64,000 bases of DNA from Nesterenkonia lutea (GTDB taxonomy: Bacteria > Actinomycetota > Actinomycetes > Actinomycetales > Micrococcaceae). Positions within the stretch are counted from its first letter, which is position 1; each line of letters opens with the position of its first letter. The notes beneath the pieces were generated by a model. The model saw only the letters and a list, made by a program, of their open reading frames with translations, searched no databases and was not told the DNA's origin. The stretch is from assembly GCF_014873955.1 (NCBI RefSeq), contig NZ_JADBED010000001.1:2108001-2172000 (forward strand). Direction: 5' to 3'. This document shows, piece by piece, positions 12,757 through 25,981 of the stretch. The translations under genes and the position numbers were made by a program.

Positions 12757-13623
12757 TCACCAGAACAGGATCATCATCATGGTGGCGAGGAACCCGCAGC
12801 CGTAGTTCAGCCAGATGAACCGGCGCCAGGCCGCGTTCACCCCGGCCGAGGACTCATCGGTGACGTTCCACCACGGCAGCGAGATGGCGACATAGGGGAT
12901 CACCAGCACGGCCGTCAGCGGGATGGGCCACTGCCCCGCCAGGAGCAGGACCCCCGCTCCCGCCCAGAGCAGCACGGCCATGCGCACGGTGAACCGGGCC
13001 CCGAGCTTGGTGGCCACCGAGCCGATCCCACCCTCGCGGTCCGGCACCACATCCTGCACGGCGCCGAAGGCATGCGCCGCCATGCCCCAGAGGAAGAAGG
13101 CGCTCAGAACGAGCACCACGGTCCCACTCGGGGAGTAGTCCACACGGTCATGGGCCAGCGCGAACCCCACCAGCGCCGGACTGACGAAGTGGGTGCTGGA
13201 GGTCAGCGAATCGATGAAGGGGCGCTCCTTGAAGCGAAGCTTCGGCACCGAGTAGGCGGCCACGGCGAACAGGCTCACCAGCACCGCCGCCCAGGTCGCC
13301 GGCCCGCCCGCACTCATCAGCAGCGCCGCCGCCGGCAGAGTGCTCAGGGCGGAGATCCAGAGCACCGCGGGATGGAGCCGGGGAGCGAGCAGCGCGCCCT
13401 CGATCCCTCCCTTGCGCGGATTGTGCAGGTCGGAGGCGTAGTCAAACACATCGTTGATGCCGTACATCGCGACGTTGTAGGGGATCAGGAAGAACAGCGC
13501 GCCCAGGATCAGCACCCAGTCGATCTCCCTGACCGCGAAGAGATACGCGGCGGCGAAGGGGAACGCGGTGTTGATCCAGCTGAAGGGGCGCGAGGAGACC
13601 AGCAGCTGGCGGATCAGGCTCAT
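12757..13623 (-). CDS. crtEb: lycopene elongase / UbiA-type prenyltransferase
   Basis: The 288-residue membrane protein belongs to the UbiA superfamily. It has NDVFDYASDLHNPRKGG, which holds the Mg-prenyl-diphosphate aspartates, and several membrane helices. CrtEb adds two dimethylallyl units to lycopene to give the C50 carotenoid flavuxanthin. The start overlaps the crtYf stop by four bases. Its position at the end of an idi-crtB-crtI-crtYe-crtYf operon makes this function much more likely than menaquinone synthesis. Confidence 0.88.
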   Translation of the reverse strand: MSLIRQLLVSSRPFSWINTAFPFAAAYLFAVREIDWVLILGALFFLIPYNVAMYGINDVFDYASDLHNPRKGGIEGALLAPRLHPAVLWISALSTLPAAALLMSAGGPATWAAVLVSLFAVAAYSVPKLRFKERPFIDSLTSSTHFVSPALVGFALAHDRVDYSPSGTVVLVLSAFFLWGMAAHAFGAVQDVVPDREGGIGSVATKLGARFTVRMAVLLWAGAGVLLLAGQWPIPLTAVLVIPYVAISLPWWNVTDESSAGVNAAWRRFIWLNYGCGFLATMMMILFW

Positions 13624-13958
13624 CCGTGGTCCTGCCTGGTCTGGGGTTCAGTGCCGAGCTGGACATCCGTGCGGCGACGCGCACGCAGCAGGTGCCAGGC
13701 GGCAGGCAGCAGCAGCACCCCGGCCAGCGGGTAGCTGAAGTCCTCCAGCGGCGCGAGCCCCAGGTAGAGGCCCATCAGGTGCTCATGGCCATAGCGCACG
13801 ATGTCGAGACCGATGATGACGTTGTCGAAGACCGCCGTGAGGATCAGCAGCACCAGCGTCGTGACTCCCACCGCCGCCCAGTGGATCCGGTGACGCAGCG
13901 CCACGGCCGCGAGCACCGCGGGCACCATGAAGGCCAGGCTCAGCCAGAGGTAGGCCAT
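13620..13958 (-). CDS. crtYf: C50 carotenoid epsilon-cyclase subunit
   Basis: The 112-residue protein has three membrane segments and matches one half of the heterodimeric lycopene-cyclase-domain family: MAYLWLSLAFMVPAVLAAVA, then VFDNVIIGLDIVRYGHEHLMG and a conserved PLEDFSYP. Heterodimeric cyclases of this type cyclise both ends of C50 carotenoids to decaprenoxanthin or sarcinaxanthin. The start is ATG 13958, which overlaps the preceding stop by one base (TGATG). Which ring type is made cannot be told from the sequence alone. Confidence 0.85.
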   Translation of the reverse strand: MAYLWLSLAFMVPAVLAAVALRHRIHWAAVGVTTLVLLILTAVFDNVIIGLDIVRYGHEHLMGLYLGLAPLEDFSYPLAGVLLLPAAWHLLRARRRTDVQLGTEPQTRQDHG

Positions 13959-14290
13959 CAGGCGCTCCCCTGCCCGGCGCGGGAGTCCAGCAGCTTGACC
14001 GCGCCGGTGTAGAGGATCATCGTGCACAGGCTCAGGAACGCCAGGAACACCGGCTCCTCGAGCGGCATCTCCGGGGCAAGCATGATGCCGGTCATGTAGG
14101 CGCTGTGGCCCACCAGGAAGATTCCAAGTCCGATTCCCGCGAAGTCCCAGAGCAGGAAGAAGACGAGGCCGACCACGGTCACCACCGCCGCCACGCGCGG
14201 GTCACGGAAGAAGAAGAGCCGAAAACGGCGATCGATCAGCAGCATGCAGGCGGCCGAGAGCAGCAGCCCCACCAGGTAGAGGTATGACAC
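13958..14290 (-). CDS. crtYe: C50 carotenoid epsilon-cyclase subunit
   Basis: The 110-residue protein is the other half of the heterodimeric cyclase. It starts SYLYLVGLLLSAACMLLIDRR, has LLWDFAGIGLGIFLVG and ends APEMPLEEPVFLAFLSLC plus a short tail. The PLEEP motif mirrors the PLEDF motif of crtYf. The start is GTG 14290, two bases after the crtI stop. Confidence 0.85.
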   Translation of the reverse strand: MSYLYLVGLLLSAACMLLIDRRFRLFFFRDPRVAAVVTVVGLVFFLLWDFAGIGLGIFLVGHSAYMTGIMLAPEMPLEEPVFLAFLSLCTMILYTGAVKLLDSRAGQGSA

Positions 14291-14292
14291 GC

Positions 14293-15921
14293 TCAGCCTC
14301 CCGTGCCGGCGTGCGGGACGGCGACCTGGGGCTCGGTGCGCAGCGGGCCGGCGCTGTAGTCCCGGCGCATGTGCTTGAGCACCAGCTCAGCGCTGATCAG
14401 ACACATCGGCACGCCGATGCCCGGCGCCACGGTGCCGCCCGCGTAATAGAGACCGCCCACCTTGGCAGAGGTGTTCTGCGGGCGGAACATCGCGCTCTGT
14501 CGCAGCGTGTGCGCCTGGCCGAGCACCGATCCTCGCCAGGAGTTGTAGTCGGTCGCGAAATCCGCCGGTCCCACCGTGTGGCGCAGCACGATCCGCTCCT
14601 CGAAATCCTCGATGCCGGCCCACGCACCGATCTGTTCGATGGCGGCCTGGGCCACCTGCTCGACGGCGGGGTCACCCCGCCCGTCGGCTCCACCGTGTCC
14701 CAGTGAGACATCAGCCGGCACGGGCACCAGCACGAAGAGGTTCTCGTGATCCTCCGGCGCCAGCCCCGTTTCGCTGGCGCTCGGCCGGCACACATAGGAG
14801 GAGGCAGGGGTGGGCACCGTCGGGTTCGCACCGAAGATGGACTCGAAGTTCGCGGTCCAGTCGCGGGTGAAGAACAGCGAATGGTGGGCCAGCTCGGGAA
14901 GCGTGCCGCGCACTCCGAGCATCACCAGCACCGCACCGGGACCGCTGGTGACCTTCTCCCACCAGGACTCCGGATAGCTTCGATCCTGCTCGGAGAGCAG
15001 CGCGGTCTCGGTGTGGTGCAGATCCGCGGCGGAGACCACATCGTCGGCGTCCTCGGAATGGATCACCCCGTGCTCGTCGCGCCAGCGCACTCCGGTGGCG
15101 ACCCGCCGAGGCCCGCGTCCCAGACGACGACGTCGCGCTGGCGCCGTGACGATCTCGGTCACCTCTGCGCCGGTGATGATCTGGACTCCGGCCTGCTCGG
15201 CGAGCCGGCGGAAGCTGGCAAGGACCTCCCAGAAGCCGCCCAGCGGGTAGCGGACCCCGTCATCGAGGTCCAGGGCGCTCATCAGGTGGTACATCGCCGG
15301 TGCATCCTGGGGTCGCGTGCCCAGAAAGACCGCGGGGTAGCCGAGGATCTGGCGCAGCACGGGATGGCTGAACCGACGCTGCACATGGCGCTCCAGGGAG
15401 GTCAGCAGCAGCCGGGCCAGCTCCGGGCCGGCTGCGAGCACCTCCGGCACCGCCAGGTTGTTCAGCCGCTTGAAGGGGTTGTAGAGGAAACGCCGCTCGG
15501 CGATCTCGGTGGTCCGCCTGGCCGAGGCGATATAGCGATCGAGCCTCGGACCGCTGCCGGGCTCCAGCTCCTCGAAGAGCAGGCGGACTCGATCGGCCCC
15601 CCGCGGGAGGTCCACGGGCGGCGGGGTCGCGCCGCCGGACTCCGGCTCGGAGTAGACCCGGTACGCGGGATCCAGGTCCACCAGGGTGAGCTGCTCCTGC
15701 GTCGTCGTGCCCAGAAGATTGTAGAAGTGCTCGAAGACCGAGGGCATCAGATACCAGGAGGGTCCGGTGTCGAACTGGAAGCCGTCGCGCTCCAGCACCC
15801 CGGCGCGGCCCCCGGTCCGATCACCCTTCTCCAGCACCAGGACCTCATGGCCCTCCCGGGCCAGCAGCGCTGCGGTGGCAAGTCCGGCGACTCCGGCGCC
15901 GATCACGATCGTGCGGGGCAT
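14293..15921 (-). CDS. crtI: phytoene desaturase
   Basis: The 542-residue flavoprotein begins with an FAD-binding Rossmann motif (IVIGAGVAGLATAALLAREG), followed by GGRAGVLERDGFQFDTGPSW. The bacterial-type CrtI C-terminal signature YYAGGTVAPGIGVPMCLISA is intact. It converts phytoene to lycopene in four desaturations, at the membrane. The ATG overlaps the crtB stop by one base (TGATG), which indicates coupled translation. Confidence 0.93.
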   Translation of the reverse strand: MPRTIVIGAGVAGLATAALLAREGHEVLVLEKGDRTGGRAGVLERDGFQFDTGPSWYLMPSVFEHFYNLLGTTTQEQLTLVDLDPAYRVYSEPESGGATPPPVDLPRGADRVRLLFEELEPGSGPRLDRYIASARRTTEIAERRFLYNPFKRLNNLAVPEVLAAGPELARLLLTSLERHVQRRFSHPVLRQILGYPAVFLGTRPQDAPAMYHLMSALDLDDGVRYPLGGFWEVLASFRRLAEQAGVQIITGAEVTEIVTAPARRRRLGRGPRRVATGVRWRDEHGVIHSEDADDVVSAADLHHTETALLSEQDRSYPESWWEKVTSGPGAVLVMLGVRGTLPELAHHSLFFTRDWTANFESIFGANPTVPTPASSYVCRPSASETGLAPEDHENLFVLVPVPADVSLGHGGADGRGDPAVEQVAQAAIEQIGAWAGIEDFEERIVLRHTVGPADFATDYNSWRGSVLGQAHTLRQSAMFRPQNTSAKVGGLYYAGGTVAPGIGVPMCLISAELVLKHMRRDYSAGPLRTEPQVAVPHAGTGG

Positions 15922-16796
15922 CAGTGAGACTCCAGTCGTGTGGTCAGGGCGGCCCGGGCGGCAAGTCCGGCCTTGCGGACGTTGGACACCCGCACCCGGG
16001 TCTCGTAGAGCTCGTGGACCTCGGAGACGGCGATCTTCTCCAGCAGCGCCTCGAAGAGCGCGCAGGCGCTGCGCACCGCGGTCCGGGCGTCCCGCGGCAG
16101 CAGCGGCATCGATGCACGGGCGTCCTCGAGCTGATCACGGACGGCTTCGACCCATTGGTCACGCTGAGCCTCACTCAGTCCCGCGCCGCCGCCGAGGTAG
16201 TCCCGACCGAGCTGATCGGTGTCCTCGGCCAGATCTCGCAGGAAGTTGATGTTCTGGAAGGCCGCCCCCAGCTGGCGGGCCCCGGTGGCCAGGATCTCGC
16301 GGGCGGCGGGGCTGCGCCGCTCCTCGCGGAGGAACACCTGCAGGCACATCAGCCCGATCACCTCGGCGGACCCGTAGACATAGCGGGCGTGCTCTTCAGC
16401 GCCATAGCTGGCAGGTTCCAGATCGGCGCGCATCGAGTCGAAGAAGGGATCGATCAGCTCAGGACCGATCTGCGCCTCGATCGCCGTGCGGGCGAAGGCA
16501 TGCACCACGAGATCCGTGCTGTAGCCGCGTGCGATCGCCGCTCGAGTCTCCGCGGCGTAGCGTTCAAGCGCCTGCGCCTTCTGCTGCGCGTCCAGTCCCG
16601 CTGCGGAGGCGGCCCCGTCCACGACCTCGTCGGCCACTCGGACCAGCGCGTAGAGGCTGCGGATGTGACCGCGGTGCCGCGGTCCCAGCAGCTTGGTGGC
16701 CAGCCCGAAGGAGGTCGAGTAGGAGGAGATGACGCAGTCTGCGGCGGCACGCGCGGCCGCGGTGAAGTGATCGGCCGGATCGGCGGGTGCGCTCAC
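15921..16796 (-). CDS. crtB: phytoene synthase
   Basis: The 291-residue squalene/phytoene synthase has both aspartate-rich motifs: VADEVVDG in the N-terminal half, and NFLRDLAEDTDQLGRD in the C-terminal half. It also has SSYSTSFGLATKLLG near the start. It condenses two geranylgeranyl diphosphates. GTG 16796 overlaps the idi stop by four bases (GTGA), so I prefer it to the longer upstream frame. No geranylgeranyl-diphosphate synthase (crtE) gene lies in the operon. Confidence 0.92.
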   Translation of the reverse strand: MSAPADPADHFTAAARAAADCVISSYSTSFGLATKLLGPRHRGHIRSLYALVRVADEVVDGAASAAGLDAQQKAQALERYAAETRAAIARGYSTDLVVHAFARTAIEAQIGPELIDPFFDSMRADLEPASYGAEEHARYVYGSAEVIGLMCLQVFLREERRSPAAREILATGARQLGAAFQNINFLRDLAEDTDQLGRDYLGGGAGLSEAQRDQWVEAVRDQLEDARASMPLLPRDARTAVRSACALFEALLEKIAVSEVHELYETRVRVSNVRKAGLAARAALTTRLESH

Positions 16797-17347
16797 GCGG
16801 TGGCGCCCCAGTGCGCCGCCTGCATCGCGGGCAGCTGCTCCACCATCCACGGGCTGAAGGCGAAGGGGGTCTCGCGGACCGCTCGGTGCACAGCTTCGGG
16901 GTCCGCCCACTCCCACTGACTGATCTCCTCGGGCACGGGGGCGAGCTCCCCGGTGAGGACTGCGGCGAACACCGGACAGATCTCGTTCTCGACGACGCCG
17001 CTCGCGTCCACTGCCCGGTATCGAAACTCGGCCAGCACCTCCTGGACCTGGGTGACCTCGGCTCCGAGCTCCTGGCGCGCACGGCGGCGCACCGCCAGCT
17101 CGAGCTCCTCGTCACGTCCTGGATGTCCGCAGAAGCTGTTGGTCCAGACTCCGGGCCAGGTGGCCTTGCTCAGCGCCCGGCGGGTGAGTAGGAGCCGTCC
17201 GGCGGAGTCGAAGAGATAGCAGGAGAAGCCCAGATGCAGCGGGGTGTCCTGGGTGTGCACCGTGCGCTTGGGGGCCACACCTGTGGCCGCTCCGGTCTCT
17301 GAGAGCAGAACGACGTGTTCCTCCGCCGAGGACGAGCCTGAGGTCAT
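16793..17347 (-). CDS. idi: isopentenyl-diphosphate delta-isomerase (type 1)
   Basis: The 184-residue Nudix-fold protein has PLHLGFSCYLFDSAGRLLLT, the catalytic-cysteine segment TNSFCGHPGRDE, and the Glu-containing ENEICPVFAA. It interconverts IPP and DMAPP, supplying both phytoene synthesis and the two C5 units added by CrtEb. It is the first gene of the carotenoid operon. The start is ATG 17347, because TATGCT lies six bases upstream with no ribosome site, predicting a leaderless operon mRNA. Confidence 0.92.
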   Translation of the reverse strand: MTSGSSSAEEHVVLLSETGAATGVAPKRTVHTQDTPLHLGFSCYLFDSAGRLLLTRRALSKATWPGVWTNSFCGHPGRDEELELAVRRRARQELGAEVTQVQEVLAEFRYRAVDASGVVENEICPVFAAVLTGELAPVPEEISQWEWADPEAVHRAVRETPFAFSPWMVEQLPAMQAAHWGATA

Positions 17348-17353
17348 GTCACG

Positions 17354-17359
17354 AGCATA
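17354..17359 (-). promoter_or_regulatory. -10 element of the carotenoid operon (leaderless)
   Basis: On the minus strand TATGCT is followed by six bases and ATG 17347. This would be the only promoter needed for the six tightly overlapping carotenoid genes. Confidence 0.55.
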
Positions 17360-17400
17360 GCCAGTCGCAGCCGCTCCGCGCTGGATGCGACGCCGGCGGA

Positions 17401-17449
17401 GCATGCGCATGCGACGGTGTTAGATTGGCCGAGACGTGCCGCGGCACGT
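17401..17449. promoter_or_regulatory. two palindromes and a -10 candidate upstream of the SDR gene
   Basis: GCATGCGCATGC (17401-17412) is a perfect 12-bp palindrome. A -10-like TAGATT follows at 17421-17426. A perfect 16-bp palindrome, ACGTGCCGCGGCACGT, covers 17434-17449, about where transcription would begin. The layout suggests repressor binding between the divergent idi and SDR genes, but the regulator is unknown. Confidence 0.4.
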
Positions 17450-17500
17450 GAGAAGCACGCCTGCCCGCCGCGGAGACTTCCGACCAAGGATGTGTGCCTG

Positions 17501-18976
17501 ATGGGAACAGCAGCAGTGACCGGGGCGACCGGATACATCGGAGGACGGCTGGTGCCCCAGCTGCTCCGGGCAGGGCACACGGTGCGTGTGCTCACCCGTC
17601 GAGCAGAGGCCCTGCGTGATGTCCCCTGGCGCGACGAGGTCACCGTGGTCGAAGGGGATCTGACCGATCCCGACGCGGCCGCCGAGCTCTGTGCGGGTGC
17701 TGACACCGCCTACTACCTCGTGCACTCGATGACCTCGGACCGCAGCTTCGAGGAGCTCGACGAACGCTGCGCCCAGGTCCTGGGGACCGCGGCGAGCGAG
17801 GCCGGCGTCGACCATCTGGTCTATCTCGCGGGTCTGCACCCTGACTCGCGGGAGGGCGAGCTCAGCGCCCACCTTCGCTCCCGGGTCCACGTAGGCGAGG
17901 TGCTGGAGTCCAGCGGCGTGCCCACACTCACCCTCCAGGCCGGACTGGTGATCGGTTCGGGATCCGCCAGCTTCGAGATGATCCGACACCTCACCGACGT
18001 GCTTCCGGTCATGCCGGCTCCGAAATGGGTGATGAACCAGATCCAGCCCATCGCGGTCCGCGATGCGCTGCACTATCTGACCCGCGCGATGGACATCGAA
18101 CTCAGCTCCAGCGTGCGCGCCGACATCGGCGGCCCTGATGTCCACAGCTATGCCCAGCTGATGAAGATCTACGCGCGCACCGCTGAGCTCAACGAGCCTC
18201 GCGTCATTCCGCTGCCGGTGCTGACTCCCTGGCTGGCCGCCCAGTGGGTCAATCTGGTGACCCCCATCCCGCGCACGCTGGCGATACCTCTGGTCGAGTC
18301 GCTGCAGCATGACTGCGTGGTCAAGGATCAGATCATCGACGACATCATCGCACCTCCTGAAGAGGGCCTCACCGACTACGAGACCTCGGTCAGGCTGGCG
18401 CTGGACAAGATCTCGGCGGACCGGGTGGAGACCACCTGGGCGGCCGCACACCCGCTGGACGTGCCCTCGGAGTCGCTGCCCTCGGACCCCGACTGGACCG
18501 GGCGCTCGGTCCTGGTCGATGAACGCCAGCGGCTCTCCACCGCATCGCCGGAGGCGGTCTTCGCCGTGATCGAGGGGATCGGCGGGGAGACCGGTTACTT
18601 CTCCCTCTCGCGCGCCTGGGCGCTTCGCGGTCTCGCGGACAAGCTGGTCGGCGGGGTCGGTCTGGGACGCGGCCGCAGAAGCCGCGGGCAGCTGGCTCTC
18701 GGTGACACCTTGGACTGGTGGCGGGTGGAGGACCTCGACCGCGGACACCTGCTGCGGCTGCGGGCAGAGATGAAGGTCCCCGGACAGGCCTGGCTGGAGT
18801 TCGTGGTGGAGCCTGAGGGCTCCGGCGCGCGCTACCGACAGCGGGCGATCTTCTTCCCGCGGGGACTCGCCGGACGCGCCTACTGGCTGGCGCTGGCTCC
18901 CTTCCACGCCGTCATCTTCCGCAAGATGGCGGCCCGGATCCTGGCCGATGCCGAGGGTTCCGGCCCACAGAGCTGA
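17501..18976 (+). CDS. NAD(P)-binding SDR protein with DUF2867 domain
   Basis: The 491-residue protein has an atypical-SDR Rossmann domain (VTGATGYIGGRLVPQLLRAG) in residues 1-300 with VEGDLTDPD and HLVYLAGLHP. A DUF2867 domain follows in about 340-490, with QRLSTASPEAVFAVIEGIGG and LDWWRVEDLDRGHLLRLRAE and a hydrophobic end. Such fusion proteins are common in actinobacteria near isoprenoid genes; the reaction is unknown. ATG 17501 is used because AAGGA lies about ten bases upstream and the Rossmann motif starts immediately after. It is divergent from the carotenoid operon. Confidence 0.78.
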   Translation: MGTAAVTGATGYIGGRLVPQLLRAGHTVRVLTRRAEALRDVPWRDEVTVVEGDLTDPDAAAELCAGADTAYYLVHSMTSDRSFEELDERCAQVLGTAASEAGVDHLVYLAGLHPDSREGELSAHLRSRVHVGEVLESSGVPTLTLQAGLVIGSGSASFEMIRHLTDVLPVMPAPKWVMNQIQPIAVRDALHYLTRAMDIELSSSVRADIGGPDVHSYAQLMKIYARTAELNEPRVIPLPVLTPWLAAQWVNLVTPIPRTLAIPLVESLQHDCVVKDQIIDDIIAPPEEGLTDYETSVRLALDKISADRVETTWAAAHPLDVPSESLPSDPDWTGRSVLVDERQRLSTASPEAVFAVIEGIGGETGYFSLSRAWALRGLADKLVGGVGLGRGRRSRGQLALGDTLDWWRVEDLDRGHLLRLRAEMKVPGQAWLEFVVEPEGSGARYRQRAIFFPRGLAGRAYWLALAPFHAVIFRKMAARILADAEGSGPQS

Positions 18977-18978
18977 AC

Positions 18979-19024
18979 CGGATGGTGGACGGCCGAGAAA
19001 AGAATCTCGGACATCCACCATCCG
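18979..19024. terminator. long hairpin after the SDR gene, overlapping the next promoter
   Basis: Outer arms CGGATGGTGGA (18979-18989) and TCCACCATCCG (19014-19024) are perfect complements. Inner arms CCGAGA and TCTCGG (18993-18998, 19005-19010) close a 6-nt loop. It begins three bases after the SDR stop codon, so it could end that transcript. Its right arm also contains the CCATCC of the putative SigK promoter for the FAS1 gene. Confidence 0.6.
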
Positions 19025-19044
19025 ATCCTGTCTTCGCTCCGAAC
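19018..19044 (+). promoter_or_regulatory. SigK-like promoter of the FAS1 lipoprotein gene
   Basis: CCATCC (19018-19023), a 15-bp spacer and CCGAAC (19039-19044) resemble the mycobacterial SigK promoter as I recall it (CCATCC-N16/17-CCGAAT). The last -10 base and the spacer length differ, so this is weaker than the copy at 21429. It predicts a leader of about 70 nt with an AGGAG ribosome site. Confidence 0.5.
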
Positions 19045-19121
19045 TCTGAGCACATGACCTGGTCGAGACAACGATCAGATGTCATGCCAGAGACCACGTG
19101 CGATCAACAGGAGATTCAGTC

Positions 19122-19841
19122 ATGAAGACCGAGATGCGCAAAACAACTTCCCTGCTCGGAATCGGAATGGTCGCCCTGCTGGGCCTGACCGCCTGCGGCG
19201 GCTCGGAGGAGCCCGCCGAGGAGACCGACCAGGAGATGACCGAGGAAGAGCCCATGGAGTCAGAGGCTCCGATGGACGAAGAGTCCTCGGAGTCGGAAGA
19301 GCCCATGGATGAAGAGTCGATGGACGAGTCTGATCCCGCCGCAAGCCTGGTCGGCGCCTCCTGTGAGGCCTACGCCGAGGAGGTTCCCGAGGGTGAGGGT
19401 TCGGTCGGCGGGATGGCCGAGGATCCGGTGGCCACCGCGGCCTCGAACAACCCGATGCTGACCACGCTCACCGCAGCAGTCTCCGGCGAGCTGAACCCGG
19501 ACGTCGACCTCGTGGACACGCTCAACGGCGGCGAGTTCACCGTGATCGCCCCCACTGATGATGCCTTCGCCGAGATTCCGGAGGAGGACCTCAACGCTGT
19601 GGTCGAAGACGCTGACATGCTGACCAGCGTCCTGACCTACCACGTCATCGAAGGTCAGATGTCCCCCGATGAGATCGCCGGTGAGCACGAGACCGTCAAC
19701 GGCGCCACCGTGACCATCGAGGGCGAAGGCGAAGACCTGATGTTCGACGACGCAGGCCTGGTCTGCGGCGGCGTCCAGACCGCCAACGCCACCGTCTACA
19801 TGGTCGATGCTGTCCTGATGCCCGAGGCGGCCGAAGAGTGA
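19122..19841 (+). CDS. FAS1 (fasciclin) domain lipoprotein
   Basis: The 239-residue product starts with a lipoprotein signal whose lipobox is LLGLTACGG. A very acidic spacer with repeated EEPMESEAPMDEES-like runs covers about residues 26-75. One FAS1 domain follows, with NPMLTTLTAAVSG, FTVIAPTDDAFAEIP, LTYHVIEGQMSP and the end box ANATVYMVDAVLMP. It is related in domain type to mycobacterial MPT70/MPT83, which are under SigK control. ATG 19122 has AGGAG upstream. It sits directly before sigK-rskA and is probably exported and surface-anchored. Confidence 0.85.
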   Translation: MKTEMRKTTSLLGIGMVALLGLTACGGSEEPAEETDQEMTEEEPMESEAPMDEESSESEEPMDEESMDESDPAASLVGASCEAYAEEVPEGEGSVGGMAEDPVATAASNNPMLTTLTAAVSGELNPDVDLVDTLNGGEFTVIAPTDDAFAEIPEEDLNAVVEDADMLTSVLTYHVIEGQMSPDEIAGEHETVNGATVTIEGEGEDLMFDDAGLVCGGVQTANATVYMVDAVLMPEAAEE

Positions 19842-19893
19842 TCTGCACGGGCGCGGTCACTGCTGACCGTTCCTGAGGAACAGGCGAGAGCAC

Positions 19894-19942
19894 ACGGCGG
19901 CGTCCGGCACCCACCTGCACGACAGGGTGCGGGCGCCGCCGT
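19894..19942 (+). terminator. nested hairpin after the FAS1 gene
   Basis: Outer arms ACGGCGGCG (19894-19902) and CGCCGCCGT (19934-19942) enclose a second stem, GCACCC (19907-19912) with GGGTGC (19925-19930). TGTT follows the right arm. It lies 52 bp after the FAS1 stop and before sigK, so it would separate the two transcripts. A smaller stem GTTCCT/AGGAAC lies at 19869-19881. Confidence 0.6.
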
Positions 19943-19968
19943 TGTTCGTCCCGGGGGTGTGGCATTCT

Positions 19969-20580
19969 ATGGGGATGCATGACATGGGCACCTCAGCTTC
20001 GGCCGCCGACGGCGCGCCGCCTGTGCATGCACCCGCGGACACCTGCAGAGACCTTCTCCTGAAGATCCAGCAGGGAGATGAGCAGGCGTTCGAGCAGCTG
20101 TATCGAGAGCAGAGCGCGATTCTGCTGGCCACCGCGCTGCGTGTGCTGCGGAACAGATCCCTCGCCGAAGAGGTTCTCCAGGAGATCTTCACCGAGGTGT
20201 GGGTCAACTGTCACAGCTACCGCCCCCAGGCTGGCAGCGGCAGGGCCTGGCTGACGACCATGTGTCGCCGTCGGGCCATCGACAGGGTCCGAGCAGTGCA
20301 GGCCCAGCAGAACAGAGATTTCACCCAGGGGGTGAAGGAGGCTCATATCCATGAGCCCGATGTCCAGGACTCCGTCCTCACCCAGGTGGAGGCGGCCCGC
20401 GCGCAGACCGCGCTGCGGACCCTTCCCGAGGAGCAGGCCACCGCCATAGCGATGGCCTACTATCAAGAGCTGTCTCATTCGGAGATCTCTCGGCGGCTCG
20501 ACGTGCCGCTGGGAACAGTGAAATCGCGGATCCGAGACGGCATGCAGCGACTCAGGACACAGCTAGGAGGTGCCGGATGA
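19969..20580 (+). CDS. sigK: ECF RNA polymerase sigma factor, SigK type
   Basis: The 203-residue protein has sigma region 2 (about 45-115; FEQLYREQSAILLATALRVL and WLTTMCRRRAIDRVRAVQ) and region 4 (about 150-200; LPEEQATAIAMAYYQELSHS and LDVPLGTVKSRIRDGMQRLR). Three ATGs (19969, 19975, 19984) could start it, and I take the first. The stop overlaps the start of the rskA-like gene by four bases. Pairing with an RskA-type anti-sigma factor, and a FAS1 gene next door, argues for the SigK subgroup. Confidence 0.88.
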   Translation: MGMHDMGTSASAADGAPPVHAPADTCRDLLLKIQQGDEQAFEQLYREQSAILLATALRVLRNRSLAEEVLQEIFTEVWVNCHSYRPQAGSGRAWLTTMCRRRAIDRVRAVQAQQNRDFTQGVKEAHIHEPDVQDSVLTQVEAARAQTALRTLPEEQATAIAMAYYQELSHSEISRRLDVPLGTVKSRIRDGMQRLRTQLGGAG

Positions 20581-21410
20581 ACGCCGATCGCGAATACCTG
20601 GCCGCCGGCTGTGCGCTCGGGACCCTGGACGGGGCCGAGCTGCGCGAAGCACTCGAGCTGGAGGCCGCTGACCCGAGCTTCGCCGAGGAGGTGCAGTCCT
20701 TCCGCGAGACGCTGGGGCTGCTGGCCGAGTCCGACGACGCCGTCGCGCCCAGCGCCGAGGTGGAGGCCGGCATCCTGCCCATCCCGCGGCGTGAACAGCA
20801 GAACCCAGCCCCAGAGACACAAGAAGCCCCAGAGACCCTTGATGTTCCAGAAGCCCCCGGGACACGCGAGGCGCCCGAGGCACCCGAGCCTGCGGCGGTC
20901 ACCGGCAGTTCGCCTTCCGGGGCCGCGCCTCGCCGTCGTCAGCCGCTGACCACCCTCTTCGCCCTGGCGGCCTCCACTCTGCTGGTGCTCTCCGCCGTGC
21001 TGGCCGGCGTGGTGGTCAACCAGCAGCAGGACACCACCGACATGGAAGAGTCGCTCACCGCGGCCGAGGCTGAACGGGAACGCGCGCAGCGCCTGCTCGG
21101 CGCCGCTGATCTCTCGTTCACCGAGGCGGAGGCCACTGTGGGCGGACGCGTGACCCTGGCCTATTCAGTCTCCGAGCAGATGCTCCACCTGACCCCGCAC
21201 GACATGCCGGAGCTGCCCGAGGACCAGACCATGCAGCTCTGGCTGATCGATGAGGAGGGACCACACAGCGCCGGCCTGATGACCGGCACGCAGACCGAGC
21301 TGCTCACCGATGTGGCCATGGACGAGGGCATGACCTTCGGCGTCACCGTGGAACCGGCCGGCGGCTCCGAGGAACCGACCACCGAACCGGTCCTGCTCGC
21401 CGACCTCTGA
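20577..21410 (+). CDS. rskA: anti-sigma-K factor, RskA type
   Basis: The 277-residue protein has an N-terminal cytoplasmic domain (YLAAGCALGTLDGAELREAL...) that should bind the sigma factor. A proline/glutamate-rich linker covers about 78-110. One membrane helix follows (TTLFALAASTLLVLSAVLAG), then a short helical stretch and an extracytoplasmic RskA domain (AYSVSEQMLHLTPHDMPELP, QLWLIDEEGPHSAGLM). No zinc-binding HxxxCxxC motif is present, as in RskA. Regulated proteolysis of such proteins normally releases the sigma factor. It is translationally coupled to sigK (ATGA). Confidence 0.88.
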   Translation: MNADREYLAAGCALGTLDGAELREALELEAADPSFAEEVQSFRETLGLLAESDDAVAPSAEVEAGILPIPRREQQNPAPETQEAPETLDVPEAPGTREAPEAPEPAAVTGSSPSGAAPRRRQPLTTLFALAASTLLVLSAVLAGVVVNQQQDTTDMEESLTAAEAERERAQRLLGAADLSFTEAEATVGGRVTLAYSVSEQMLHLTPHDMPELPEDQTMQLWLIDEEGPHSAGLMTGTQTELLTDVAMDEGMTFGVTVEPAGGSEEPTTEPVLLADL

Positions 21411-21428
21411 AGACTCTGGCTCGAACAC

Positions 21429-21457
21429 CCATCCAGCAGGCCCCTCCACTCCGAATA
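21429..21457 (+). promoter_or_regulatory. SigK-type promoter of the molybdenum oxidoreductase gene
   Basis: CCATCC (21429-21434), exactly 16 bp, and CCGAATA (21451-21457) match the full mycobacterial SigK consensus as I recall it. Seven bases then lead to ATG 21465, so transcription should start at or very near the ATG. The site lies in the 54-bp gap after rskA. Confidence 0.75.
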
Positions 21458-21464
21458 AGCAGAC

Positions 21465-23126
21465 ATGACACAGACGGCGCGCAGGACCCAAGACCCGGCC
21501 CCCTCCGGCCCCGGCCAGCCGCTGCTGCGCCTGGCGCCCCATCTGCTGGCCGGCGTCCTCGCCGCGGCGGTGTTCCTCGGAGCGGCCGACCTGGTGTCGC
21601 GACTCTTCGGTCCCACCTCCTCGCCGCTCATCGCGCTGGGCTCAACCGTCATCGAGCTCTCCCCGAGCTGGCTGCAGGACTTCGCCATCTCAGCCTTCGG
21701 CAGCAACAACAAGCTTGTGCTCTACATCAGCATGGGAGTGGTGGGCGCGGTGCTGGCCGCCCTGATCGGAGTGCTGGCCCGGGCTCGCATGCGCCTCGCA
21801 CTGGGGGTCTTCGCCCTCGTGGGCGTGATCCTGCTCATCGCGGTGCTGCGCCGCCCGGAGAACTCGGCCATCGATTCCGTCCCCACTCTGCTCGGCGCCC
21901 TCGTGGGTCTGCTCACGCTGCTGCTGCTCAGCGGCGCGGCGACGGGATGGCTGGGTCACCCCGGAACACAGGATCCCGCGCAGCACTCCGTACAGGATCC
22001 GGCCCAGGACCCGGCACAGGACCCGGCACAGGACCCGGCACAGGATCCGGCGCACTCCCGGCGCAGGTTCCTCGGTCTGGCCGCTGCCGGCACCGCCCTC
22101 GCCGCCGGCTCCATCGCCTTCGGACGCTCGGTCAACGCCCTGGGGCGCGACGTCGGAGCTGCGGCCGCCCAGCTGGTCCTTCCCACTCCAGCTGTGCGCG
22201 CCGCCGCCATCCCGGAGGCCGCGAGCGTCGGCGTCGAGGGCGTGCCGCCGTTCATCACGCCCAATGACGAGTTCTACCGGATCGACACTGCTCTGGCGGT
22301 GCCGGAGCTGAGCCCCGAAGAATGGACGCTGCGCATCCACGGCATGGTCGAGGAGGAGGTCACCATCGACATGGCCGAGCTCCTGGACCTTCCGCTCGAG
22401 GAGCACCATGTCACGCTGACCTGTGTCTCGAACCCCGTGGGTGGAGACCTGGTCGGGAACGCCACCTGGCTGGGTCATCCCATCCGCGAGCTGCTCGCCC
22501 GCGCGCGGCCCACCGGCGATGCGGACATGGTGCTCTCTCGCTCGATCGACGGATGGACGGCCTCGACTCCCCTTGAGGTGCTCACCGACGAAGACCGTGC
22601 GTCCCTTCTCGCCGTGGGCATGAACGGCGAGCCGCTTCCGGCCCAGCATGGCTATCCTGCTCGGCTCGTGGTGCCCGGACTCTACGGATTCGTCTCGGCG
22701 ACCAAATGGGTCACCGAACTCGAGGTCACCCGCTTCGACGAGCAGACCGCCTACTGGACCGATCGCGGCTGGAACGAGAGGGGACCGGTCCTCGTGGCCT
22801 CGCGCATCGATGTGCCCCGGCCCCTGGCCGAGGTCCCCGGCGAGGAGCTGATCGTGGCCGGCACCGCCTGGGCGACGCATGTGGGTGTGGAGACTGTCGA
22901 GGTCCGGCTCGACGACGGCGACTGGGAGTCGGTGGAGCTCGCCGAGGAGGTCAGCACCGACACCTGGAGGCAGTGGAGGCACACCTTCGCCGATGTCGGC
23001 TCGGGACGCCACTCGGTGACGGTGCGCGCGACCAACGCCGAGGGGGAGGCGCAGATCGCCGAGCGCGCCGACCCGATCCCTGGCGCCGCCACAGGCCAGC
23101 ACCGCATCGAGTTCAGCGTCAGCTGA
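21465..23126 (+). CDS. membrane-anchored molybdopterin-dependent oxidoreductase (sulfite-oxidase fold)
   Basis: The 553-residue protein starts with five membrane helices (residues about 20-160). A QDPA-repeat linker (about 165-198) follows, then a twin-arginine-like SRRRFLGLAAAG with a further hydrophobic stretch, and a large extracytoplasmic catalytic domain. The molybdenum-ligating cysteine is C320 in VTLTCVSNPVGG. Further family signatures are NATWLGHPIRELL, HGYPARLVVPGLYGF and the C-terminal dimerisation domain. The reaction is unknown (sulfite, methionine sulfoxide or similar). It lies in the SigK gene group, and molybdate transport genes follow after one aminotransferase. No ribosome site is seen. 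Confidence 0.85.
   Translation: MTQTARRTQDPAPSGPGQPLLRLAPHLLAGVLAAAVFLGAADLVSRLFGPTSSPLIALGSTVIELSPSWLQDFAISAFGSNNKLVLYISMGVVGAVLAALIGVLARARMRLALGVFALVGVILLIAVLRRPENSAIDSVPTLLGALVGLLTLLLLSGAATGWLGHPGTQDPAQHSVQDPAQDPAQDPAQDPAQDPAHSRRRFLGLAAAGTALAAGSIAFGRSVNALGRDVGAAAAQLVLPTPAVRAAAIPEAASVGVEGVPPFITPNDEFYRIDTALAVPELSPEEWTLRIHGMVEEEVTIDMAELLDLPLEEHHVTLTCVSNPVGGDLVGNATWLGHPIRELLARARPTGDADMVLSRSIDGWTASTPLEVLTDEDRASLLAVGMNGEPLPAQHGYPARLVVPGLYGFVSATKWVTELEVTRFDEQTAYWTDRGWNERGPVLVASRIDVPRPLAEVPGEELIVAGTAWATHVGVETVEVRLDDGDWESVELAEEVSTDTWRQWRHTFADVGSGRHSVTVRATNAEGEAQIAERADPIPGAATGQHRIEFSVS
21993..22052 (+). repeat. five 12-bp tandem repeats within the oxidoreductase gene
   Basis: Units caggaYccggcN at 21993, 22005, 22017, 22029 and 22041 encode QDPA repeats. 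A related copy lies at 21969. They form the flexible linker between the membrane part and the catalytic part, and keep the frame. Confidence 0.85.
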
Positions 23127-24315
23127 GCGGGGCCTGCCCAGCCTGATCCCGCTGGAACTGCAGGATCCGGCGCAGCCCTTCGGCCACCGCCTGCTCCCCC
23201 GGGGCGAGGCTGAGTCGGACCCATTCATGCCCGCCCACCGGATCAAAGTCGGTGCCCGGCACGATCGCCACCCCCGCCTCCTCCAGCAGGGACCGGCAGT
23301 ACGCGGCGGAATCGCCGAATCGGGCGAGCTGCCCACTCAGGTGGGCATAGACGTAGAACGCGCCGTCGGCCGGTGCCGCTTCTCCCCAGCCCAGTTCCCC
23401 GAGCCGGTCCAGCACCAGCGCGCGGGCCGCCGCATATCCCTGCACCTGCGCTGCGGCGAAACTCAGCGACTCCGGACTGAAGGCCTGGACCGCTGCCAGC
23501 TGGGTGGCATGGGGAGGACACAGCGACACGTTGCCGGCGAGCCGTGAGACCGGATCGACCAGATGTTCGGGCAGCACCATCCAGCCCAGCCGCCACCCGG
23601 GCATGCCCCAGTACTTGGAGAAGGAGGAGATGACCACCGCCTCGGACTCCATCTCGCTCGCGCTGACGTTCTCCGCCCCGAAGCTGATGCCGTGGTAGAT
23701 CTCATCGCTGATCAGCTGCACATCATGGTCGGCGCACCAGCGGGAGAGCTCGACGAGCGTCGCGCGTTCGACCATGGTGCCGGTGGGATTGGCCGGGGAT
23801 GCGAGGATCAGGCCGGAGAGCTCGCCATGGGTGCGGACCTCTGCCTCGAGCTGGGCCACTGTGGGCTGGAAGCGCTCCGCCGGACCGCAGTCGAGGTCCA
23901 CCACCTCGATCCCCAGGGCCGTGAGGATGTTGCGGTAGGCGGGGTAGCCGGGCCGCGCCAGGGCCACGCGGTCGCCCGGATCGAAGGCCGCCAGGAAGCT
24001 GAGCATGAAGGCCCCTGAGGAGCCGGTGGTCACCGCGATCCGCTCCACCGGCACCGTGACCCCGTACCAGCGCTCGTAGTGGCCCGCGATGGCCTCGCGC
24101 AGCGGCATGATCCCCATCGCGGCGGTGTAGTTCAGCACCGTGTTGGCCGCGTGGATCTGCGCGGCCGCCTGGTTCACCGCCTCCGGGGCTCCGGATCCGG
24201 GCTCCCCCGCGGTCAGCGAGACCACGTCTCTGCCGGCCGCGCGCATGGCGTCGATGCGGGCCAGGATGCTCATCACCTCGAATCCGGGCACCTGTGATCT
24301 CTGCGAGGGCATCAT
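23119..24315 (-). CDS. class I/II pyridoxal-phosphate aminotransferase
   Basis: The 398-residue protein has the fold-type I aminotransferase motifs VVSLTAGEPGSGAPEAV, LNYTAAMGIMPLREAIAGHY, GLILASPANPTGTMVE, DEIYHGISFG and SSFSKYWGMPGWRLGW, in which the lysine forms the Schiff base. It resembles aspartate/alanine aminotransferase-like proteins; the substrate is not clear. ATG 24315 (followed by a second ATG) has TAGGCT six bases upstream. It ends with an 8-bp overlap with the convergent oxidoreductase gene. Confidence 0.85.
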   Translation of the reverse strand: MMPSQRSQVPGFEVMSILARIDAMRAAGRDVVSLTAGEPGSGAPEAVNQAAAQIHAANTVLNYTAAMGIMPLREAIAGHYERWYGVTVPVERIAVTTGSSGAFMLSFLAAFDPGDRVALARPGYPAYRNILTALGIEVVDLDCGPAERFQPTVAQLEAEVRTHGELSGLILASPANPTGTMVERATLVELSRWCADHDVQLISDEIYHGISFGAENVSASEMESEAVVISSFSKYWGMPGWRLGWMVLPEHLVDPVSRLAGNVSLCPPHATQLAAVQAFSPESLSFAAAQVQGYAAARALVLDRLGELGWGEAAPADGAFYVYAHLSGQLARFGDSAAYCRSLLEEAGVAIVPGTDFDPVGGHEWVRLSLAPGEQAVAEGLRRILQFQRDQAGQAPLS

Positions 24316-24321
24316 ATGACC

Positions 24322-24333
24322 AGCCTATAGACT
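24322..24333. promoter_or_regulatory. back-to-back -10 elements of divergent leaderless genes
   Basis: Minus-strand TAGGCT (24327-24322) is six bases from ATG 24315, and plus-strand TAGACT (24328-24333) is eight bases from ATG 24342. The two hexamers abut in AGCCTATAGACT. Any -35 elements must lie inside the opposite coding sequences. Confidence 0.5.
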
Positions 24334-24341
24334 CACTGCCT

Positions 24342-25187
24342 ATGCGCAGCTCAGCCCGAATCGGCATGCCCGGCGCCCGGTCGAGGGTCGCTGCCGGGCT
24401 GCTCCTCGCCGGACTGCTGGCACTGGCCGGATGCAGCTCCGCCCCCGGATCCGAGACCGAGTCCACCTCGGACTCCCTGACTGCTTCCGAGATCAGCGTG
24501 TTCGTCGCGGCATCCCTCGATGAGGTGATGACCACGATCGCCGCAGATTTCGAGGCGGACACGGGCATCTCCGTGCGGCTCAGCTCGGCGGGCTCTGCGG
24601 ACCTGCTCGCCCAGCTCCTGCAGGGTGCGCCTGCGGACCTCTTCATCCCCGCCGATGAGCGGACCATGGACCGCGCCGCGACGCAGGACCTGATCTCCGC
24701 ACCGACCCAGCTCATCGCCTCGAACACCCTGGTCATCGCGGTTCCCGCCGGGAACCCCGCGCAGATCGACGCCCTGGAGGACCTCGAGGGCCCCGCCGGG
24801 GCGTCCTCAGCCCCGAACTCACCGGTGCTGGTGCAGTGCGCCCCTCAGGTGCCCTGCGGCGCCGCCGCGAGACAGGTCGCGGCGGCGGCCGATGTCAGTC
24901 TCGCCCCGGTGAGCGAGGAGCTTTCGGTGACCGATGTGCTGGGCAAGGTGCGCAGCGGCGAGGCCGATGCCGGCCTGGTCTACTCCACCGATGTGCGCCT
25001 CGCCGCCGCCGAAGTGGACGCGGTGGACATCCCGGAGGCCGCAGAGTTCCCGAACCGGTATCCGGCCGCAGTGCTGGCCGAGTCCGCCCAGCCGGAGGCC
25101 GCGGCGGCGTTCCTCGAGTTCCTGCTCACCGAGGACGGGCAGCGGCCGCTGCGCGAGGCCGGGTTCACCCCGGCGGGTGAGTCGTGA
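24342..25187 (+). CDS. modA: molybdate ABC transporter substrate-binding lipoprotein
   Basis: The 281-residue protein has a lipoprotein signal with lipobox LLALAGCSS and the ModA sequence pattern: [49 protein letters not shown] and the C-terminal [13 protein letters not shown]. It binds molybdate or tungstate outside the membrane. The stop overlaps the modB start by four bases. It follows the molybdenum oxidoreductase locus, suggesting a shared role in molybdenum use. Confidence 0.88.
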
Positions 25188-25981
25188 GCCGCCGGGCTGC
25201 GGCCGCCGCGCCGAGATGGATCCTGCTCCCCGCCGCGCTGGGGGCCGTCTTCATCCTGCTGCCCATCACGGCGCTGCTGATCCGCATCGAGCTCGCCGAA
25301 CTGCCCGCGCTGCTGAGCTCCGCGGCGGCACTGTCCGCACTGTGGCTGAGCCTGCGCACCGCGGTCCTGGCCACCGTGCTCTGCACTGTCCTCGGCGTGC
25401 CGCTGGCCCTGGTGCTCAGCCATGCCAGCTTCAAGGGCAGCGGCGCCCTGCGCACACTGATCCTGCTGCCCCTGGTGCTGCCGCCGGTCATCGGCGGCAT
25501 CGCGCTGCTGAACACCTTCGGGCGGCAGGGGCTGCTGGGCGAGACCCTGGATGTGCTGGGGATCCAGGTCGCGTTCTCCACAGCAGCGGTGGTGCTGGCG
25601 CAGACCTTCGTCTCGCTGCCCTTCATGGTGATCGCCGTGGAGGCGGCGCTGCGCGGAGTGCAGAAGGAGGTGGTGGAGGCGGCCGTGGTCGATGGCGCCG
25701 GTCCGACCCAGCTGCTGCGCAGCATCGTGCTGCCGCTGATCGCGCCTGGAATGGTCTCGGGCGTGGTGCTCGCCTTTGCGCGCTCGCTCGGTGAGTTCGG
25801 CGCGACCATCGCTTTCGCGGGAAGCCTGCAGGGGGTCACCCGGACCCTGCCGCTGGAGATCTACCTGCAGCGGGAGACGGACCCGGACGCCGCCGTCGCC
25901 CTCTCGGTGCTGCTGATCGTGGTTGCGGTGGTCGTCATCGGCCTCACTCGGCCACGTACCGCGCCAGATGCTCTCCGGTGA
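25184..25981 (+). CDS. modB: molybdate ABC transporter permease
   Basis: The 265-residue protein has about five or six membrane helices, and the permease EAA-type loop reads [25 protein letters not shown], with [13 protein letters not shown] nearby, typical of ModB. It is of normal length and ends in TAPDALR. Its 3' end overlaps the convergent UvrA-like gene by 38 bp. No modC ATPase gene follows, so the transporter must borrow an ATPase encoded elsewhere, or modC has been lost. Confidence 0.87.

Follow-up and report, generated by a model that had tools for sequence, protein, structure and literature searches.

The SigK unit of Nesterenkonia lutea

Does a molybdenum (Mo) enzyme belong to the genes that the extracytoplasmic function (ECF) sigma factor SigK switches on? 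This question is raised by a locus in a stretch of 64,000 nt from Nesterenkonia lutea (contig NZ_JADBED010000001.1, positions 2,108,001 to 2,172,000 of the forward strand; hereafter the window). Here a gene for a FAS1 lipoprotein is followed by sigK, by rskA encoding the anti-sigma factor, and by a gene for an oxidoreductase of the sulfite oxidase fold, here called OX. A first-pass annotation had assigned these genes to a SigK regulon, with one SigK-type promoter before FAS1 (P1) and another before OX (P2). From the comparison with related genomes we consider it probable that SigK drives both FAS1 and OX.

The gene and motif positions of the unit were confirmed (Table 1), the distance from box to start codon differing by one base of counting: P2 ends 8 nt before the OX ATG, or 7 nt if the additional A is counted into the box. 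The gap between rskA and OX measures 54 bp. On the plus strand between 18800 and 23300 no sigma-70 promoter and no T-run terminator was called. The genome (2.96 Mb) contains one FAS1 gene and two PF00174 proteins, one being OX. Among named organisms, OX and FAS1 have their closest relatives in Nesterenkonia, and the P1 boxes recur in Nesterenkonia sp. Act20 (L166) and further relatives.

Conservation of the promoter motif

In the genome of N. lutea itself CCATCC-N15-17-CCGAA has 13 matches, compared with 5 for the backwards control. Two of the 13 lie inside the 2.4 kb SigK unit, and only at the OX site is CCGAA followed by T. As 13 versus 5 matches make a single genome weak evidence, the case rests on relatives. 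For this purpose we used an even sampling of the class, 197 genomes in all. The class loci comprise the window and the best 120 of 145 OX places (121 loci), the latter taken from 101 of the 104 OX-bearing genomes; 80 loci of at least 586 in named genomes bring the total to 201. Because an identical or near-identical locus is present in both sets (L048 and L237), class and named counts are not fully independent. For FAS1 genes far from OX, 44 of 47 places were taken, situated in 40 regions.

A de novo count of 5-mer pairs with gaps of 13–20, to which no motif was supplied, gave ATCCG-N14-CCGAA as the top dyad, found in 19 of 54 upstream regions of sigK-linked OX genes and in 24 of 5206 controls (other long open reading frames of the same loci). 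This dyad equals the proposed motif. Its refined form, C[ACG]ATCC-N15/16-CCGAA[TCG], precedes 23 of the 47 OX genes with sigK, rskA, and FAS1 near, including those of the window and of two other Nesterenkonia, 4 of 22 with FAS1 only, and 12 of 124 standing alone, compared with 28 of the 5206 controls (p = 2e-36, 8e-6, and 5e-11, respectively, kinship of the loci being ignored). In reversed OX upstream regions the refined motif was not found. Although spacers of 14–18 were allowed, the 75 distinct sites at OX or FAS1 showed only N15 (67 sites) and N16 (8 sites); the earlier description of the FAS1 site as a weaker copy was therefore wrong. At these sites the motif ends in T 35 times, in C 26 times, and in G 14 times.

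A motif at either OX or FAS1 was found in 18 of the 29 class loci that have sigK, in 3 of the 18 that lack it, and in 16 of the 21 named loci where FAS1 and sigK are both present. At FAS1 itself it was found in 8 of 47 loci near OX and in 13 of 40 far loci. Four FAS1 genes of family f7 (L258, L260, L262, L264), with neither sigK nor OX nearby, have a perfect CCATCC-N15/16-CCGAAT. With both motifs conserved in relatives, the interpretation of the locus as a SigK-type unit carrying two promoters of this type stood. A printed version of the mycobacterial SigK promoter consensus, which the annotation had invoked, was not found in our literature search.

Scattered genes with a common motif

We selected six named genomes (three Arthrobacter, two Pseudarthrobacter, and Rhodococcus jostii) in which OX has the motif but none of sigK, rskA, and FAS1 is found within 7 kb; no selection was applied to FAS1 or sigK. 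Upstream of the distant FAS1 gene CNATCC-N15-CCGAAT was present on the gene's strand in five of the six genomes and absent in the remaining one (L293). The distant SigK-like loci of these genomes carried the motif in six of nine cases, one per genome, and the other three had none. All sites had N15, though 14–18 were permitted. Since the motif is found at unlinked OX, FAS1, and SigK-like genes, shared regulation can be told apart from co-transcription. The FAS1 locus of R. jostii (L298) contains three CCATCC-N15-CCGAAT sites, one of them 7 nt before the ATG of another gene, which by this position is possibly a further SigK target.

Distance between promoter and start codon

Sigma factors usually begin transcripts 6–8 nt past the second box. 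Of 41 distinct OX sites, 30 have an in-frame OX start 7–8 nt past this box (27 at 7 nt and 3 at 8 nt, the window at 8 nt); four of the 27 had first been scored at −2, the ATG overlapping the box, and were then recounted. These 30 sites come from 12 genus labels, four of them named genera, which possibly overlap. In the remaining 11 sites the start lies 5 to 354 nt past the box. Of the 36 sites at FAS1, 26 are situated 38–101 nt before the start and two at 7 nt. If SigK initiates at 6–8 nt, the OX mRNA would begin at the AUG because the start codon is 7–8 nt past the box, and in the window an earlier OX start is ruled out by a stop codon within the promoter. This geometry predicts that the OX mRNA is leaderless.

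Linkage of OX, FAS1, and sigK across the class

OX homologues occur in 104 of the 197 genomes, FAS1 homologues in 84, and SigK-like proteins in 113. For distances and co-occurrence the 145 OX places were used. Among the OX matches listed, 74 genomes have both OX and FAS1, 27 OX only, 10 FAS1 only, and 86 neither (Fisher p = 2e-20). At least 52 of the 99 FAS1 genes have OX at a distance of 5 kb or less, and for at least 48 the distance is 500 bp or less; the OX neighbours listed are upstream of FAS1 on the same strand in 49 cases, downstream on the same strand in two, and on the opposite strand in one. In class loci with sigK, rskA, and FAS1, OX comes before FAS1 in 22 of 26, whereas the order of the window, FAS1 before OX, was found in 12 of 20 distinct named loci of this kind. 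The window's gene order is thus rare in the class yet usual close by, the FAS1-first named loci being those of near relatives such as Nesterenkonia sp. Act20, Glutamicibacter, Paeniglutamicibacter, and Brachybacterium.

Judged from these genomes, OX is a class-wide partner of the SigK unit and not a local joiner. The annotation had rightly placed the oxidoreductase in the unit but had taken it for a local addition. It had further suggested that the ancestral SigK output included such an enzyme; the wide distribution of OX is compatible with, though no proof of, an ancestral link. On a tree of 200 OX proteins sigK linkage requires at least 19 changes.

Several observations weigh against SigK control of both FAS1 and OX. 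On the same tree a comparison of linkage and motif gave no clear answer. Solitary OX genes prevail (69 of 121 class loci and 54 of 80 named loci), and the 12 lone OX genes with the motif are only 10% of 124. The refined motif is absent from 24 of the 47 fully linked OX genes and from all 18 class FAS1 genes near OX without sigK. In the class sample the OX genes of family f7 lack the motif, the best matches having 2–4 mismatches (12 loci). Finally, the best NCBIfam model for the sigma factor of the window is indeed SigK (NF007228), with 185.5 bits under a cut-off of 226.

The proteins of the unit

The sigma factor shows regions 2 and 4 above the Pfam cut-offs, and its closest solved relative is M. 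tuberculosis SigK. The latter has a redox switch that uses a cysteine pair (PMC7509140, the part available). These cysteines, 133 and 183, correspond to A146 and Q196 in the window. Among 61 aligned SigK hits 20 have both cysteines, two have one, and 39 have neither, and because of these 39 the M. tuberculosis-type redox switch cannot be the general entry of the signal. RskA, an RskA_C domain protein whose gene adjoins sigK, is the most likely point of signal entry here.

The FAS1 domain has MPT70 as best solved relative (E = 1.6e-55 over 162 residues). The lipobox was found by pattern only, and the tether following its cysteine is acidic and methionine-bearing. Of 127 genes, 37 in which no lipobox was found and five in which the domain start was not found were excluded. 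In the remainder the methionine content of the tether near OX is 5.4% in the class set (40 measured) and 6.7% in the named set (22), compared with 0.68% in 48 other tether-like lipoproteins; leucine and isoleucine make up 0.9% and 0.1% of the tethers near OX. That a methionine-bearing tether marks only the OX-linked FAS1 proteins was ruled out, the content far from OX being 5.3% (23 measured; p = 0.68). As near and far contents are alike, the tether is a trait of the FAS1 family and not of OX linkage.

For OX four helices, a twin arginine (R199-R200), a fifth helix, and outside catalytic and C-terminal beta domains are predicted. The structure model has a predicted local distance difference test (pLDDT) score of 87.8 and places the last helix at 191–234; an earlier model (12 sequences, pLDDT 50.4) was discarded. 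The twin arginine before the last helix is kept in 196 of 200 homologues. OX belongs to the sulfite oxidase superfamily by its PF00174 molybdenum cofactor (Moco) domain, Mo cysteine, and fold. The Mo-ligating cysteine that the annotation had noted is C320, kept in 200 of 200 homologues, and the active-site Arg and Tyr are kept as well. The signature CVSN-x-VGG lacks the second Arg of sulfite oxidases, and OX stays under the curated cut-offs for SorA (102.9 of 600), SorT (71.8 of 570), and SoxC (84.7 of 420). Identity with MsrP was ruled out by cut-off (66.7 of 207), residues, and fold. There is no sign of b hemes in OX, since before residue 292 no membrane-part histidine is kept in more than 80 of the 200 homologues. 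By modelled fold and active site, sulfite-type chemistry would rank first for the substrate. The second PF00174 protein of the genome (L015, C1:2336995-2337411, minus strand) has, judged by its translated open reading frame, 626 residues and a cytochrome-b-like membrane part fused to a Moco domain.

Proposed mechanism and alternatives

We propose an autoregulated ECF19-type SigK stress unit with two SigK promoters. P1 would give the FAS1 lipoprotein and, where transcription continues beyond the hairpin that separates FAS1 from sigK, also SigK and RskA; P2 would give OX from an mRNA beginning at the AUG or a few bases from it. Judged by its predicted fold, the hairpin is possibly an attenuator. 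A similar one without T run was found in Nesterenkonia sp. Act20 (L166:5375-5445; z −3.7 for a longer and −2.4 for a shorter stretch). With no signal SigK would be held at the membrane by RskA. Extracytoplasmic stress would remove RskA, so that SigK could fire P1 and P2. RskA loss is the published trigger for the SigK-RskA pair of M. tuberculosis. The FAS1 protein, held by a lipid anchor, and the membrane-anchored Mo enzyme of the sulfite oxidase fold, exported by twin-arginine translocation (Tat), would both act on the outer side of the membrane.

We considered other explanations for the locus. The promoter motifs could be chance matches and OX could be read through from rskA, as might be suggested by the narrow gap before OX and by the 13 occurrences of the 11-letter form in N. 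lutea; since the motif is also seen at OX genes that are unlinked or lie upstream of FAS1, and its spacer and start distance are fixed, this is very improbable. Alternatively, OX might be an extracytoplasmic dehydrogenase for sulfite or S-oxyanions with a job unrelated to FAS1, SigK merely co-regulating an envelope set. The fold and the kept Mo cysteine, Arg, and Tyr speak for this, but OX lacks the second Arg, FAS1 and OX are adjacent also without sigK (FAS1 is near OX without sigK or rskA in 22 of 201 loci), and about half of the FAS1 genes or more are as close to OX as given above (at least 48 of 99 within 500 bp). On balance we find it doubtful.

The unit could also serve in defence against methionine oxidation, as in Azospira and Brucella, the FAS1 tether being a sacrificial oxidant sink and OX reducing methionine sulfoxide. 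The methionine content near OX, 5.4–6.7% against that of other tether-like lipoproteins, and an architecture parallel to Brucella bcrS-abcS/bcrXQP (PMC8315932, in part) favour this idea, which nevertheless appears rather improbable to us. A wider version makes SigK-RskA an actinobacterial photo-oxidative envelope response, to light, UV, or singlet oxygen, in which the methionine tether takes the hit, the leaderless Mo enzyme repairs or removes S-oxides, and MPT70/83 would be what is left of a light-stress system. We regard it as unlikely, the light signal and the repair chemistry being its least supported parts.

Relation to known systems

The following comparisons refer to the available parts of the publications cited by PMC number. 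An mpt83-sigK-rskA cassette with a SigK site has been described, even in Yersinia (PMC7509140, citing Veyrier 2008), and the same source cites Said-Salim 2006 and Veyrier 2008 for the mycobacterial SigK regulon. The unit in the window resembles this cassette in having FAS1, sigK, and rskA in one unit, a SigK site before FAS1, and a full-length RskA. It differs by the added OX with its own promoter and by a SigK without the cysteine pair. The link of sigma factor, RskA, and FAS1 that the annotation had pointed out thus holds but was already published. No mention of a molybdenum enzyme was found in these parts of the accounts of the cassette and the SigK regulon, and a printed SigK-OX link was not found in a literature search that did not extend to Veyrier 2008. 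As far as searched, the class-wide OX link with its evidence from unlinked genes and the leaderless geometry are new, while the FAS1-sigK-rskA core is known.

In Azospira a SigF-NrsF system with MrpX and YedY1 is found. This system and BcrS-AbcS/BcrXQP of Brucella (PMC8315932) share with the present unit an ECF sigma/anti-sigma pair, a methionine-bearing secreted protein, and an extracytoplasmic Mo enzyme. In contrast, the present unit has ECF19/RskA instead of the ECF16/NrsF type and a FAS1 lipoprotein in place of an MXKDX peptide; OX differs from MsrP and has no identified MsrQ partner. With the Sco3746-type dual Sec/Tat Mo proteins (PMC5449189) OX shares membrane helices, twin arginine, last helix, and an outside Mo domain, but its membrane part is without a conserved heme-ligand histidine. 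Sulfite oxidase, SorA, SorT, and SoxC resemble OX in fold, Mo cysteine, active-site Arg and Tyr, and the C-terminal beta domain; OX differs from them by its membrane part, by its signature, and by scores far under the cut-offs.

Neighbouring genes and the possible signal

Table 1. Positions of the SigK unit and of surrounding features in the window
Feature	Position	Strand	Remarks
P1, SigK-type promoter CCATCC-N15-CCGAAC before FAS1	19018-19044	+	CCATCC 19018-19023, CCGAAC 19039-19044
FAS1 lipoprotein gene (MPT70/83-like)	19122-19841	+	PF02469 87 bits (cut-off 22)
RNA hairpin between FAS1 and sigK	19890-19945	+	−39.1 kcal/mol, z −4.3
sigK, ECF sigma factor	19975-20580	+	19969 or 19984 alternative possible starts
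rskA, full-length membrane anti-sigma factor	20577-21410	+	PF10099 81.9 bits (cut-off 29.4); NF052375 117.4 (cut-off 100)
P2, SigK-type promoter CCATCC-N16-CCGAAT before OX	21429-21456	+	CCATCC 21429-21434, CCGAAT 21451-21456
OX, membrane-anchored sulfite-oxidase-fold molybdenum enzyme	21465-23126	+	PF00174
Carotenoid cluster, divergent from SigK unit	12757-17410	-	UbiA prenyltransferase, lycopene cyclase, phytoene-desaturase-like, phytoene synthase, NUDIX/idi-like
SDR-DUF2867 gene, directly upstream of unit, recurrent FAS1-locus neighbour	17417-18976	+	
modA and modB, molybdate uptake, one gene past OX	24294-25981	+	TIGR01256 116 bits (cut-off 62.5); TIGR02141 218.9 (cut-off 182.6)

Of 111 FAS1 loci, 17 contain relatives of the short-chain dehydrogenase/reductase (SDR) encoded upstream of the unit, compared with 0 of 130 others (p = 9e-7; for the DUF2867 part 12 versus 0), and crtI-like genes in 9 of 111 versus 1 of 130. 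The molybdate uptake genes modA and modB may play a part in the SigK-OX unit.

The stimuli behind SigK have been described as obscure (PMC9861118). According to the same source, exposure of M. kansasii to light raises expression of crt, photolyase, and, weakly, both SigK-type FAS1 genes. In Nesterenkonia sp. Act20, which has the FAS1-sigK-rskA-OX unit, RskA falls under ultraviolet (UV)-B and then recovers (PMC8965627). Act20 has three RskA_C proteins, however, so the UV-B-responsive one may be another RskA. The carotenoid and SDR neighbours, the light response of M. kansasii, and the fall of RskA in Act20 are independent but indirect clues. They make light, UV, or photo-oxidative stress the leading candidate for the SigK signal, a tentative suggestion to which we give somewhat less than even weight.

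Implications

A class-wide partner enzyme provides a testable output of the SigK pathway in soil bacteria, together with the sharp prediction of an OX mRNA that is leaderless and starts from a SigK promoter. A FAS1 lipoprotein and a Mo enzyme under SigK in many soil and salt-loving relatives would hint at extracellular defence as a wider role of this pathway.

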